Positions 1 to 60,505 of a stretch of DNA of 64,000 bases are shown here, in pieces. The notes under the pieces are model-generated. The model worked only from the letters and a program-made list of their open reading frames with translations. It was not told the DNA's origin and made no database searches. Each line of letters starts with the position of its first letter. Positions within the stretch are counted from its first letter, which is position 1. The translations under genes were made by a program, and so were the position numbers. Source of the stretch: Actinomycetota bacterium (GTDB lineage Bacteria; Actinomycetota; Thermoleophilia; Gaiellales; Gaiellaceae); NCBI GenBank assembly GCA_003134505.1, contig PLBK01000012.1:1-64000 (forward strand), written 5' to 3'.

Positions 1-50
1 CGACCTTCTGCATGGCAAGCAGACGCTCTAGCCAACTGAGCTACATCCGC
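1..50 (-). tRNA. tRNA-Gly (GCC), truncated by window edge (5' part only)
   Basis: Reverse complement reads GCGGATGTAGCTCAGTTGGCTAGAGCGTCTGCTTGCCATGCAGAAGGTCG: acceptor 5' strand, D-arm, and anticodon arm TCTGC-TTGCCAT-GCAGA with anticodon GCC. Confidence 0.93.
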
Positions 51-467: not shown

Positions 468-544
468 CGGCCGAGTCTCCCAGACCGTGTGGACGACCGA
501 GCCCATCGTTCTGCAAGCTCCAGACGCCATTCGACACGAGTGTC

Positions 545-642
545 CGCGCAGCCGTGGCTTCGCTGCGGCGTAGCCCGGGCCGTTCGGACGTCGACCACGT
601 GGGGAAGGGGGCTCACGGGGGAAACCGGCTGTTTCCCCCGTG
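545..642 (-). repeat. Dispersed palindromic repeat family, copy A (hairpin 614-642)
   Basis: CACGGGGGAAAC-cggct-GTTTCCCCCGTG (12-bp arms) directly abutting the stop codon of the minus-strand ALDH gene, followed by a second GC palindrome; shares sequence with copies near 6471, 25770 and 59121. Confidence 0.85.
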
Positions 643-2130
643 CTAGTCGATCTGAGCCCTTTGCAGCCGGCCCGAGTAGTCGACGTAGATCGACTTCCAC
701 TCCGTGAACACGTCGAGCGCCGCCTGGCCCGCCTCGCGGTGGCCGTTGCCCGTGTCCTTGGTGCCACCGAACGGCAGGTGCACCTCGGCGCCGGTCGTGC
801 CCGCGTTGACGTATGTGATGCCGGTCTCGAGGTCGCGCATGGCGCGGAACGCGCGGTTGACGTCGCGCGTGAAGATCGCCGACGAGAGGCCGAAGCGGAT
901 CCCGTTCGCGACACGGATCGCCTCGTCGAAGTCCCGCACGCGGATCAGCGCCGTCGTCGGGCCGAAGATCTCCTCCTGCGCGATCCGCATCTGCGGCTCG
1001 ACGTCGCCGAAGATCGTCGGCCGGTAGAAGAAGCCGCGGTCGAGGCCGTTCCCGGTCGCGACCTCGCCGCCGGTCAGCAGCCGCGCACCCTCGTCCTGGC
1101 CGATCTCCGTGTAGGAGTGGATCTTGTCGAGCGCCTTGCGGTTGATGACGGGGCCGACGTCCGTGTCCGGCTCCCACCCGGGCCCGAGCCGCATCCGCTC
1201 GGCGGCCGCGACCAGGCGCCCGGCGAGCTCGTCGTACACGCGCTCGTGTGCGATCACCCGGCTCGCCGCGGTGCAGCGCTGCCCCGAGGTCCCGAACGCC
1301 GACCAGAGGATGCCCTCGACCGCGAGCTCGAGGTCGGCGTCCTCCATGACGATGATGCCGTTCTTGCCGCCCAGCTCGAGATGGACGTGCTTGAGATGGT
1401 CGGCGGCCGCCTCGAGCACGGCGACGCCGGTCTCGCGCGAGCCGGTCAGCGTCACGACCGGCACGTCGGGGTGCCGCACGATGCGGTCGCCGACGTCGCG
1501 GCCGAAGCCGTGCACCACGTTGACGACCCCGGGCGGCACGCCCGCCTCGGAGAGCAGCTCGACGAAGCGCTCGCCCAGTGCCGGCGTGTCGTTGGCGGGC
1601 TTGAAGACGACCGTGTTGCCGCAGACGAGCGCCGGGACGATCTTCCAGGACGGGATCGCGATCGGGAAGTTCCAGGGCGTGATCACGCCGACGACGCCGA
1701 TCGGCATCCGGACGCTCATGTTGAACTTGTCCGGCAGCTCGGACGGCGTCGTCTGGCCGTGGAGGCGCCTGCCCTCCCCGGCCATGTAGTAGCTCATGTC
1801 GATCGCTTCCTGGACGTCTCCCCCGGCCTCGGCGATCACCTTGCCCATCTCGCGGGTCATCAGCTGGGCGAGCTCCTGCTTGTGCTCGGCGACGAGCGCG
1901 GCGAAGCGGAAGACGATCTCGCCGCGCTTCGGCGCGGGCACGAGCCGCCAGCTCCGGTACGCCTCCTTGGCCGCCTCGACGGCGCGGTCGACGTCCTCGG
2001 GGCCCGACCTCGGGAACGTGCCGATCGCCTCGCCCGTCGCGGGGCTCAGGCTCTCGAAGGTCTCGCCGCCGGCGGCGTCAACCCACTCGCCGCCGATGAA
2101 GTTCTGGAACGTCCGCGCCGCAGTGGCCAC
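643..2130 (-). CDS. Aldehyde dehydrogenase family protein
   Basis: 495 aa; FQNFIGGEWV, ITPWNFPIAIPSWK, VTLTGSRETG, LELGGKNGIIVMEDAD, SGQRCTAASR, EEIFGPTTALI. Confidence 0.96.
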   Translation of the reverse strand: MATAARTFQNFIGGEWVDAAGGETFESLSPATGEAIGTFPRSGPEDVDRAVEAAKEAYRSWRLVPAPKRGEIVFRFAALVAEHKQELAQLMTREMGKVIAEAGGDVQEAIDMSYYMAGEGRRLHGQTTPSELPDKFNMSVRMPIGVVGVITPWNFPIAIPSWKIVPALVCGNTVVFKPANDTPALGERFVELLSEAGVPPGVVNVVHGFGRDVGDRIVRHPDVPVVTLTGSRETGVAVLEAAADHLKHVHLELGGKNGIIVMEDADLELAVEGILWSAFGTSGQRCTAASRVIAHERVYDELAGRLVAAAERMRLGPGWEPDTDVGPVINRKALDKIHSYTEIGQDEGARLLTGGEVATGNGLDRGFFYRPTIFGDVEPQMRIAQEEIFGPTTALIRVRDFDEAIRVANGIRFGLSSAIFTRDVNRAFRAMRDLETGITYVNAGTTGAEVHLPFGGTKDTGNGHREAGQAALDVFTEWKSIYVDYSGRLQRAQID

Positions 2131-6393: not shown

Positions 6394-6465
6394 AGGGGAG
6401 TAGCTCAATGGTAGAGCACCGGTCTCCAAAACCGGGGGTTGCAGGTTCGAGTCCTGTCTCCCCTG
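6394..6465 (+). tRNA. tRNA-Trp (CCA)
   Basis: AGGGGAGTAGCTCAATGGTAGAGCACCGGTCTCCAAAACCGGGGGTTGCAGGTTCGAGTCCTGTCTCCCCTG; full cloverleaf, anticodon CCA. Confidence 0.98.
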
Positions 6466-6470
6466 CTGAG

Positions 6471-6499
6471 CACGGGGGAAACGGCCGGTTTCCCCCGTG
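6471..6499 (+). repeat. Dispersed palindromic repeat family, copy B (hairpin only, partial flank); likely terminator of tRNA-Trp
   Basis: CACGGGGGAAAC-ggccg-GTTTCCCCCGTG directly after the tRNA, followed by GGCCCCCTTCCC as in the other copies. Confidence 0.85.
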
Positions 6500-6760
6500 G
6501 GCCCCCTTCCCTGTAGGCAGGAATCCGAGCTGGAGATGGCCTGCGGCCGAATGAATCGGCCTCCGGCGCCGGCCGCGGGGCACGACAGGCGACCGGTTCT
6601 CGTTGCAAAGCGCGCAACTTCGGCCTACGCCGCGACACGGGGAAGGCCACTGCGGCCTTGGGGAGAGCATGCGGACAGCCAGTACACAAGGCAGATCGGC
6701 GGGCGATAACCCGTTCGGGCTCCCGGACCTTGCCGACTGCCTGCCAGAAGGGAGAAGCCT

Positions 6761-24721: not shown

Positions 24722-25765
24722 ATGCCCGTGCGCGTGGGAGTGCTGACCGGCGGAGGCGACTGCCCCGGCCTGAACGCGGTCATCCGCGCAGTGGCGCGCC
24801 GGTCGCTCGACCGCGGCCACGACGTCGTCGGCGTCCGCGCAGGGTGGCGGGGGCTGATCGAGGACCAGCTCGAGCCGCTCGGGCCGCGGGAGATCTCGGG
24901 GATCCTCCCCCGTGGCGGCACGATCATCGGGACGAGCCGCACCAACCCGTACAAGGTCGAGGACGGCGTGCGCCGAGTGCTGGCGAACTTCGCGCAGCAT
25001 CTCGACGCCCTGGTCGCCATCGGCGGCGAGGACACGCTGGGCGTCGCCGCGCTGCTCTACGAGGAGGAGCAGTTCCCGGTCGTCGGCGTCCCGAAGACGA
25101 TCGACAACGACCTCTCCGGCACCGACTACACCTTCGGGTTCGACACGGCGGTCTCGATCTGCACGGAGGCGATCGATCGCCTGCACACGACGGCGGAGTC
25201 GCACAACCGCGTGATGGTGGTCGAGGTGATGGGACGCCACACCGGCTGGATCGCGGTCATGAGCGGCATCGCCGGCGGCGCCGACGTGATCCTGATCCCC
25301 GAGCATCCGCTCACCGTCGAGGAGACGTGCGGCGAGATCGAGAAGCGGCACCGGCGCGGCAAGGACTTCTCGATCGTGGTCGTGAGCGAGGGCTACAAGC
25401 TGACCTATGCCTCCGGCGAGCAGCGAGAGGTGACGCAGGAGGCGGCGCTCGACCAGTTCGGCCACGTGCGCCTGGGCGGGATCGGCGAGTCGCTGGCCCG
25501 GGAGATCGAGCACCGCACCGGCTTCGAGACCCGCGTGACCGTGCTCGGGCACGTCCAGCGCGGCGGCACCCCGACCGCCCGCGACCGCGTGCTCGCCACG
25601 CGCTTCGGTCTGGCGGCCGCGGATCTCGCCCAGGAGGGCCGCTTCGGCCGGATGGTGGCGCTGCGCGGCAACGCGATCGTCGACATCCCGCTGGCGGAAG
25701 CGGTGGCCGAGCTCAAGACCGTGCCCGAGGACTGGTACGACGTAGCCAAAGCCTTCTTCGGTTAG
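24722..25765 (+). CDS. pfkA: 6-phosphofructokinase; residues predict PPi-dependent type
   Basis: VGVLTGGGDCPGLNAVIR, AIGGEDTLGVA, GVPKTIDNDLSGTDYTFGFDTA, MGRHTGWIA. Confidence 0.95.
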   Translation: MPVRVGVLTGGGDCPGLNAVIRAVARRSLDRGHDVVGVRAGWRGLIEDQLEPLGPREISGILPRGGTIIGTSRTNPYKVEDGVRRVLANFAQHLDALVAIGGEDTLGVAALLYEEEQFPVVGVPKTIDNDLSGTDYTFGFDTAVSICTEAIDRLHTTAESHNRVMVVEVMGRHTGWIAVMSGIAGGADVILIPEHPLTVEETCGEIEKRHRRGKDFSIVVVSEGYKLTYASGEQREVTQEAALDQFGHVRLGGIGESLAREIEHRTGFETRVTVLGHVQRGGTPTARDRVLATRFGLAAADLAQEGRFGRMVALRGNAIVDIPLAEAVAELKTVPEDWYDVAKAFFG

Positions 25766-25769
25766 TAGT

Positions 25770-25868
25770 ACGGGGGAAACGGCCGGTTTCCCCCGTGAGC
25801 CCCCTTCCCTTTGTGGTCGCGTATCTCGCGCCTCGAGCTACGCCCGGGCCAAGCCCGGGCTTCGCGGC
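25770..25868 (+). repeat. Dispersed palindromic repeat family, copy C (hairpin 25770-25796)
   Basis: ACGGGGGAAAC-ggccg-GTTTCCCCCGT right after pfk stop, then GAGCCCCCTTCCCTTTGTGGTCGCGT and a second palindrome GCCCGGGCcaaGCCCGGGC. Confidence 0.9.
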
Positions 25869-25960
25869 AGCTGGCTTCGCGTGGCGTTCCGCTTGCGTTG
25901 GGGGAGACACCGCCGGACTACTCCGAGCGGCGTCGCAGCGACGGCCGCGAGGAGGCTCTT

Positions 25961-58963: not shown

Positions 58964-59042
58964 GGCCGAAGCCTACTGCCGCCCTGACGCGAGGCACTTC
59001 GCGGACAGGTGGACGAAATGAAGACCAGAAGCCACCGGTTCC

Positions 59043-59149
59043 CCCAAGTGCCGCGAAGCCGCGGCTTGGCCGCGGTGTAGCTCAGGTCGCCGAAGACGCG
59101 ACCCCAAAGGGAAGGGAGCCCGCGGGGGAAACCGGCTGTTTCCCCCGCG
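59043..59149 (-). repeat. Dispersed palindromic repeat family, copy D (hairpin 59121-59149)
   Basis: CGCGGGGGAAAC-cggct-GTTTCCCCCGCG abutting ftsZ stop codon; flank GACCCCAAAGGGAAGGGAGCC and GCCGCGAAGCCGCGGCTTGGCCGCGG as in other copies. Confidence 0.9.
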
Positions 59150-60505
59150 CTAGAGCTCGCGCAGGAAGCTCGGCGGCTCGAACGGCTCGCGTTCGGCGGT
59201 CCCGAACGTCGTCGCCGCACGCCGCTGGCCGGCGCCGAAGCCCGTGGCGACGACGGTCACCCACACCTGCCCGTTCAGCCGCTCGTCGATCGTTGCGCCG
59301 AAGATGATGTTCGTGTCGTCGGTCGCGCGCTGACGGACGATCTCCGCGGCCTGGTTGACCTCGAAGAGCGAGAGGTCCTCCCCGCCGGCGATCGAGAGCA
59401 GGATGCCTCTGGCACCCGTCATCTCGCCCTCGATCAGCGGCGAGCGCAGGGCGCGCTCGACGGCCTCGACGGCACGGTCGTCGCCGCTCGAGTAGCCGAT
59501 ACCCATCAGCGCGTTGCCGGCGTCGCTCATGATCGTGCGGACGTCCGCGAAGTCGAGGTTGATCAGCCCCGGCATCGTGATCAGGTCGCAGATCCCCTGG
59601 ACGCCCTGGCGGAGCACGTCGTCGGCGATCCGGAAGGCGTCCAGCATCGACGTCGAGCGATCGAGCACCTCGAGCAGCTTCTCGTTCGGGACGACGATCA
59701 CGGTGTCGCACTCCGAGCGCAGCTCCGCGGTGCCGTCCTCGGCCGAGCGGCGGCGCTGCGTGCCCTCGAACTTGAACGGCGTCGTGACGATCCCGACCGT
59801 CAGCGCCTTGAGCTCGCGCGCGATGTGCGCCACGACCGGCGCCGCACCCGAGCCGGTGCCGCCGCCCTCGCCGGCGGTCACGAACACCATGTCCGCGCCG
59901 CGCAGCGCCTGCTTGATCTCGTCGTAGCTCTCCTCGGCGGCCTTGCGCCCGATCACTGGGTCGGCCCCCGAGCCGAGCCCCTCGGTGAGCTCGCGTCCGA
60001 TGTGGATCTTGACCGGTGCGTCCGAGAACTGGAGCTGCTGGATGTCGGTGTTGACGGCGATGAACTCGACCTGCGAGAGCCCGGCGTCGATCATCCGGTT
60101 GACCGCGTTCAGCCCGGCGCCGCCCACGCCGACGACCTTGATGACCGCGACGTACGTACCGGAGTCGGGCCGTGGCACGGCGTGGAGAATCGGCGGCTCG
60201 GGCGCGACGTCCCAGAGCTCCGGCCGCACCCGCTCGCGCGCCGGCTCCTCCGCAGGAGCGGGGACGGGCGCGCGCGGGATGTCGACGACGACCAACTCGA
60301 CGGGCTCGAGATGACGTGGCGAGCGCGGCTCGGGCTCCACCACGGGCTCGGGAGCGTGCTCGACGGTCTCCTCGGGCACACGTGGCTCGGCGCTCCCTTT
60401 CGGAGCGCCGCCTGCCTCCTGCTCGGCCTGACGCTGAGCAGCTTCCGTCGCCTTGAACAGCTCGGCGAGGGGCCCTTCACGCATGCTGGCGCGCTTGCGC
60501 GCCAT
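59150..60505 (-). CDS. ftsZ: Cell division protein FtsZ with long N-terminal extension
   Basis: [44 protein letters not shown] tubulin signature, [12 protein letters not shown]7 loop, C-terminal [12 protein letters not shown]. Confidence 0.98.

Follow-up and report, generated by a model that had tools for sequence, protein, structure and literature searches.

When small repeats are found at the 3' ends of genes, they are usually taken as terminators or REPs, and their spread is rarely caught. A repeat of this kind stands behind four genes of a 64-kb stretch of Gaiellaceae DNA (i.e. the window, the whole of the sequence analysed), raising the questions of what this repeat is and how it came to lie there. 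Taken as a whole, the observations are very probably best explained by a Gaiellales mobile element that encodes no protein, is well defined at its left end but variable at its right, and duplicates its target on insertion.

Four copies of a composite repeat in the window

The hairpin pattern CGGGGGAAAC-N5-GTTTCCCCCG had exactly four matches in the window (616-640, 6473-6497, 25771-25795 and 59123-59147). Dinucleotide-preserving shuffles of the window produced no matches, even with three mismatches. All four of the copies claimed by the first-pass annotation were present. Each copy consists of a 12-bp stem (H1), a tail (RGCYCCCTTCCC) and a second hairpin (H2), in this order (Table 1). The tail GAGCCCCCTTCCC was located 3' of every hairpin, on the same strand as the upstream gene; copies B and D differ from it at one or two positions. 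Copy B had been described as partial; it is complete and has another type of H2, which recurs at another locus (L045) and in a relative (G017). The second hairpin, noted at first pass as a GC palindrome, is degenerate in copy A. The stem abuts the stop codon of both the ALDH-like and ftsZ-like genes, as was first noted, and starts 3 nt after the stop codon of the pfk-like gene and 4 nt after the end of tRNA-Trp. The four copies belong to the family on the basis of sequence only, with no readable duplication in any of them.

Table 1. Positions of the four copies, their component parts and the genes upstream of them in the 64-kb window
Copy	Feature	Position	Strand	Remarks
A	Upstream ALDH-like gene	643-2130	-	Name read from sequence
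A	Stop codon TAG	643-645	-	Abuts the stem
A	Whole element	511-645	-	Behind ALDH-like gene; 3' boundary approximate
A	H1 and tail	598-642	-	69.1 bits
A	H1	614-642	-	12-bp stem CACGGGGGAAAC / GTTTCCCCCGTG, 5-nt loop; pattern match and fold
A	Pyrimidine tail	601-613	-	AGCCCCCTTCCC
A	H2	556-575	-	Degenerate
B	Upstream tRNA-Trp	6394-6466	+	
B	Whole element	6468-6600	+	Behind tRNA-Trp; 3' boundary approximate
B	H1 and tail	6471-6515	+	66.3 bits
B	H2, type C	6545-6561	+	GGCCGA-atgaa-TCGGCC
C	Upstream pfk-like gene	24722-25765	+	Name read from sequence; stop codon 25763-25765
C	Whole element	25766-25900	+	Behind pfk-like gene; 3' boundary approximate
C	H1 and tail	25769-25813	+	66.0 bits
C	H2, type A	25842-25860	+	GCCCGGGC-caa-GCCCGGGC
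D	Upstream ftsZ-like gene	59150-60379	-	Name read from sequence
D	Stop codon TAG	59150-59152	-	
D	Whole element	59018-59152	-	Behind ftsZ-like gene; 3' boundary approximate
D	H1 and tail	59105-59149	-	63.4 bits
D	H2, type A	59059-59075	-	CCGCGGC-caa-GCCGCGG

Structure of the element

The element is approximately 120-135 bp in length and protein-less, with no gene of its own. The left end is often TAG or another NAG (the leader in front of H1 reads TAG for 29 of the 138 copies and NAG for many others), followed by H1 (CACGGGGGAAAC...GTTTCCCCCGTG), the tail RGCCCCCTTCYYC, a linker, H2 and a variable right end for which there is no consensus. Second halves were of type A (GAGCTACGCCCGGGCAAAGCCCGGGCTYCGCGGC), type B (GGCCGACGCCGGCNAAGCCGGCATCGGC) or type C (GGCCGA-rtgaa-TCGGCC), and both linker and second hairpin were common to different copies. 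At L042, type B is attached to another first hairpin, indicating that the element is modular. The same architecture was observed in relatives as GGGGGAAAC-3 nt-GTTTCCCCC, the tail GAGCCCCCTTCTTC and an H2 of GGCTCCCGCCGGGC-AAA-GCCCGGCTCCGC. At a further set of loci from the relatives and the window's own genome (L063, L114, L115, L117, L119, L145, L149, L156 and L161), H1 and tail lead into GGGGAACCTCCCGGTTCCCC, CCCCTCC and an inverted repeat, GCTCATNGGCC...GGCCNATGAGC, which contains ATG and possibly lies over a start codon.

Pairing within H1 was kept in 96% of stem cells among 101 distinct sequences. Both sides of the stem were changed in 57 cells as compared to 13.1 in shuffles and no more than 12 in slid controls, with these covariation figures being inflated by related sequences and by the fitting of the alignment to the same stem. 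Pairing of H1 is maintained, either as DNA or as RNA. Whole copies folded as RNA were weakly more stable than shuffles (z of -1.2 to -2.9), so that no single fold is claimed for the whole element, and type A gave a poor consensus fold. At gathering thresholds, Rfam matches in the window were to tRNAs only; at five element-bearing loci, there was no match at the elements. The window itself opens on a tRNA gene (1-50, minus strand) that is truncated by the contig start.

Copy number and distribution

A search for the consensus across the genome and its relatives had been proposed in the first-pass annotation. The window's own genome, a 2.8-Mb assembly of 56 contigs with 82% completeness, contained 57 hairpins at three or fewer mismatches as compared to 0 for a reversed control pattern. 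A covariance model of the hairpin and tail (R1) detected approximately 65 H1 and tail sites in this genome (E < 0.001) and had matches in 74 of 103 family genomes, with 0 to 59 copies per genome. Across a class-wide sample of 299 genomes, the element was limited to the family of the window and three genomes of one genus from the same order. Exact pattern matches in named genomes were to MAGs titled Actinobacteria, Actinomycetota, Actinomycetes or Thermoleophilia, including Candidatus Gaiellasilicea maunaloa (Gaiellales). No copies were detected in viral contigs and plasmids at the sensitivity used. One exact match to H1 and tail (L220, QHWT01000143.1) was found in a MAG labelled Acidobacteria, reflecting either mis-binning or transfer.

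Target duplications and empty sites

Target duplications were assessed by comparing the sequences on the two sides of each copy, using mismatched pairs as controls. In the direct repeats detected, the left member ended at the edge of the element, usually 3 nt in front of H1. Flanking direct repeats with a score of at least 11 were present for 22 of 139 copies as compared to 4 of 498 controls (Fisher p = 5e-12), and for 13 of 130 copies when nine tandem-array rows were removed (p = 9e-7). For eight of the 13 non-tandem copies, the distance from the end of the repeat to H1 was exactly 3 nt (p = 1e-4). The lengths of the non-tandem repeats were 111, 99, 51, 51, 32, 27, 24, 23, 22, 21, 18, 17 and 14 nt, which are minimum estimates because copies decay. 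Most copies had no detectable duplication and were assigned to the family by their sequence. At L142 (G018:C1:858800-863700), L103 and L027 (8234-8437), a repeat unit together with the element was arrayed in tandem, at approximately 130-160 bp per unit.

Orthologous loci were compared for presence or absence of the element, as had also been suggested, and empty sites in which the repeat was single were detected in sister species for three loci in three genera. For L109, at the start of a DNA ligase gene in G042, both flanks align to a single stretch of G043, where they share exactly 99 bp; the element is present in G014. For L100 (G054), the flanks overlap by 23 bp in both G055 and G021. The flanks of L122, at the 3' end of an enolase-like gene in G104, overlap by approximately 22 bp in G105, with G107, G113, G116 and others also being without the element. 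The duplications and empty sites show that in the relatives the element is mobile, small and non-autonomous, and produces target duplications of variable length. Mobility in the window's own genome is supported by the repeats of 14-111 nt at several copies. As bounded by the empty sites, L100 has 123 nt of element-only DNA and L109 has 131 nt, and no terminal inverted repeats were seen on inspection of these two elements. Filled and empty sites with very different duplication lengths in related species thus make the movement of a protein-less element reconstructable, and the family supplies many insertion sites for testing a mechanism of long, variable target duplication.

Position relative to genes and a possible role at transcript ends

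Genes were called with a simple codon-usage caller in approximately 0.44 Mb around the copies only, so that gene counts are approximate. Most copies in the window's own genome were found directly after a stop codon or tRNA gene. A sense stop was located -2 to 5 nt before the stem for 28 of 39 main-type copies as compared to 2.4% of random intergenic positions and strands, which confirms the placement bias for this genome. Convergent gene pairs were enriched at the element (20 of 44 as compared to 65 of 393, p = 3e-5). Fixed polarity at gene 3' ends, as originally claimed, applies to all four window copies and is a strong bias in this genome, but it is not a rule: several copies are antisense between genes, and the bias is weaker in relatives, where a sense stop was present within 10 nt for 11 of 70 class-1 copies as compared to 2.0%. 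This low rate in the relatives weakens the case for a general 3'-end function. Ten of the 139 copies were directly 3' of a tRNA gene, all ten in the sense orientation and eight with gaps of 3-5 nt. At a tRNA-Pro locus, the element occupies the same place in genera g15 and g6 with a different linker and H2, which is the best hint of functional retention. The stop codon at the element was TAG in 18 of 31 cases as compared to 139 of 345 (p = 0.06), a difference that is suggestive only.

A function as a terminator or 3'-end stabiliser is plausible and would fit these positions, including the tRNA 3' ends and the tRNA-Pro locus, with the chances for and against appearing evenly balanced. The hairpin is GC-rich, as in intrinsic (Rho-independent) terminators, and there is no immediate U-tract: the tail is RGCCCCCTTCCC and no U-tract terminator was found around the pfk copy, in agreement with the earlier remark that a U-tract is absent. 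Termination and mobility can coexist, and if termination is true, this would be a jumping sequence that provides genes with ready-made ends.

Alternative explanations for the spread of the element

One alternative is that a DDE transposase of the IS1549/IS1634 type moves the element as a non-autonomous passenger. These insertion sequences reportedly generate long direct repeats of variable length on insertion (8-514 bp), for which there was no mechanistic model as of 2008 (PMC2266710). The repeats of 14-111 nt described here are also long and variable, but IS1549 and IS1634 have both a DDE transposase and inverted repeats whereas the element of approximately 130 bp has neither, and no terminal inverted repeats were visible where empty sites define the limits of the element, which argues against a passenger of this type; it is an unlikely reading. 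The same feature, together with duplications of 14 to 111 nt rather than of a fixed length, separates the element from MITEs, which it resembles in being small, non-autonomous and associated with target duplications.

A similarly small chance attaches to capture of the element at breaks, through either end joining or template switching, in which the structured hairpin would frequently serve as filler DNA. Such capture would account for duplications of variable length, for the absence of inverted repeats and for the few variable bases at the junction (cf. the 3-nt leader), but the shared left boundary of most duplicated copies argues for specificity.

Movement of a REP/REPIN-type element by the Y1 (RAYT) transposases of the same genomes appears improbable. 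The element resembles the REP, BIME and REPIN repeats associated with RAYT (TnpA_REP) in being a short, palindromic, extragenic, multicopy and protein-less sequence, often near gene 3' ends, and Y1 genes are present in the window's own genome and in 75 of the 103 family genomes. It differs in its length (120-135 bp), asymmetry, precise left end and long variable duplications, and is unlinked to the Y1 genes present; REP-type movement is not known to leave long variable duplications. The two Y1 loci of the own genome (L059 and L060; contigs C30 and C19 of G000) have palindromes of their own on either side, GGGGTCAGACCCC and TGCCAGGCACGTGCCTGGCA, and are not flanked by the element. Moreover, genomes without a detected Y1 gene carry the element (e.g. 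G070, 89% complete, with 17 copies; G066, with 20 copies). Y1/RAYT was rejected as the mover since neither the flanking palindromes nor the distribution among genomes fit. A GTAG-tagged REP was also rejected, the tag having been sought by eye in the second hairpin and found to have the wrong polarity. Of the initial description as a mobile REP/MITE-like element, mobility is upheld by the target duplications and the empty sites in three genera, but the element is not a strict MITE and is not tied to a REP/RAYT pair.

There is little probability that the copies are merely a lineage-specific family of intrinsic terminators that arose at their present positions or were spread by gene conversion rather than by transposition. 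The positions behind stop codons and tRNAs, the sense bias in the own genome, the conserved stem and tail and the covariation of the stem would all be expected of such a family. A plain terminator family was rejected because it leaves the target duplications unexplained and, as a complete account, is contradicted by the empty sites; the shared linker and second hairpin, the missing U-tract and the presence of some copies inside gene starts also speak against it. A known comparison is TRIT, which reportedly consists of a near-identical hairpin repeated at gene 3' ends of an actinobacterium and so resembles the Gaiellales element. The latter differs from TRIT in showing mobility with target duplication and in being a composite with a second hairpin. 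TRIT is a repeated terminator motif of Mycobacterium tuberculosis from the RNIE paper, which is cited in PMC3526491.

Insertion of a SINE-like RNA by target-primed reverse transcription, whose outcome would be variable duplications and one ragged end and which would suit a structured, possibly transcribed element, is very improbable and was rejected, as RVT_1 was detected in only 2 of 103 family genomes (i.e. not in 101, the assemblies being incomplete) and not in the own genome.

A model for insertion and its effects on neighbouring genes

Under the favoured explanation of a protein-less mobile element, machinery encoded elsewhere would move the element. The target would be cut with a wide and variable stagger, the left end being joined precisely and the right end loosely. 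Insertions would survive where the duplication or the stop at the edge of the element keeps the neighbouring gene working, i.e. at gene edges and behind stop codons and tRNAs. Sense copies at 3' ends may then be retained as H1 and the pyrimidine tail end or protect transcripts, this being the weakest step. It is a real possibility that insertion proceeds by a new mechanism. A bolder proposal, which we consider possible but would not favour, is that the element represents a new class of small bacterial mobile element: asymmetric, without inverted repeats, inserted through widely staggered, variable cuts by an unrecognised enzyme, and with a left end that is both stop codon and transcript end such that a single jump would complete the 3' end of a gene. 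Small mobile repeats of modular build that contain stem-loops are also known from other bacteria, among them pneumococcal BOX and RUP, whose sequence, architecture and lineage are unrelated to those of the Gaiellales element.

The effects of insertion were apparent at individual loci. At L105, the duplicated 22 nt are the end of sufB (QMEGSVG-stop) and hence the gene remains whole. Similarly, the duplication spans the start region at L109, L054 and L164, so that the downstream gene remains whole. At L031, the gene was shortened by two codons and has a new stop at the edge of the element. As main-type H1 and tail contain no stop in the other two frames (by eye), a clean end comes from the in-frame TAG, which would by inference explain why H1 touches the stop codon. 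The copies at L105 (G084) and L131 (G041), which come from two genera and differ in their linkers, occupy an identical nucleotide position close to the 3' end of sufB, indicative of either a hot spot or an old common insertion.
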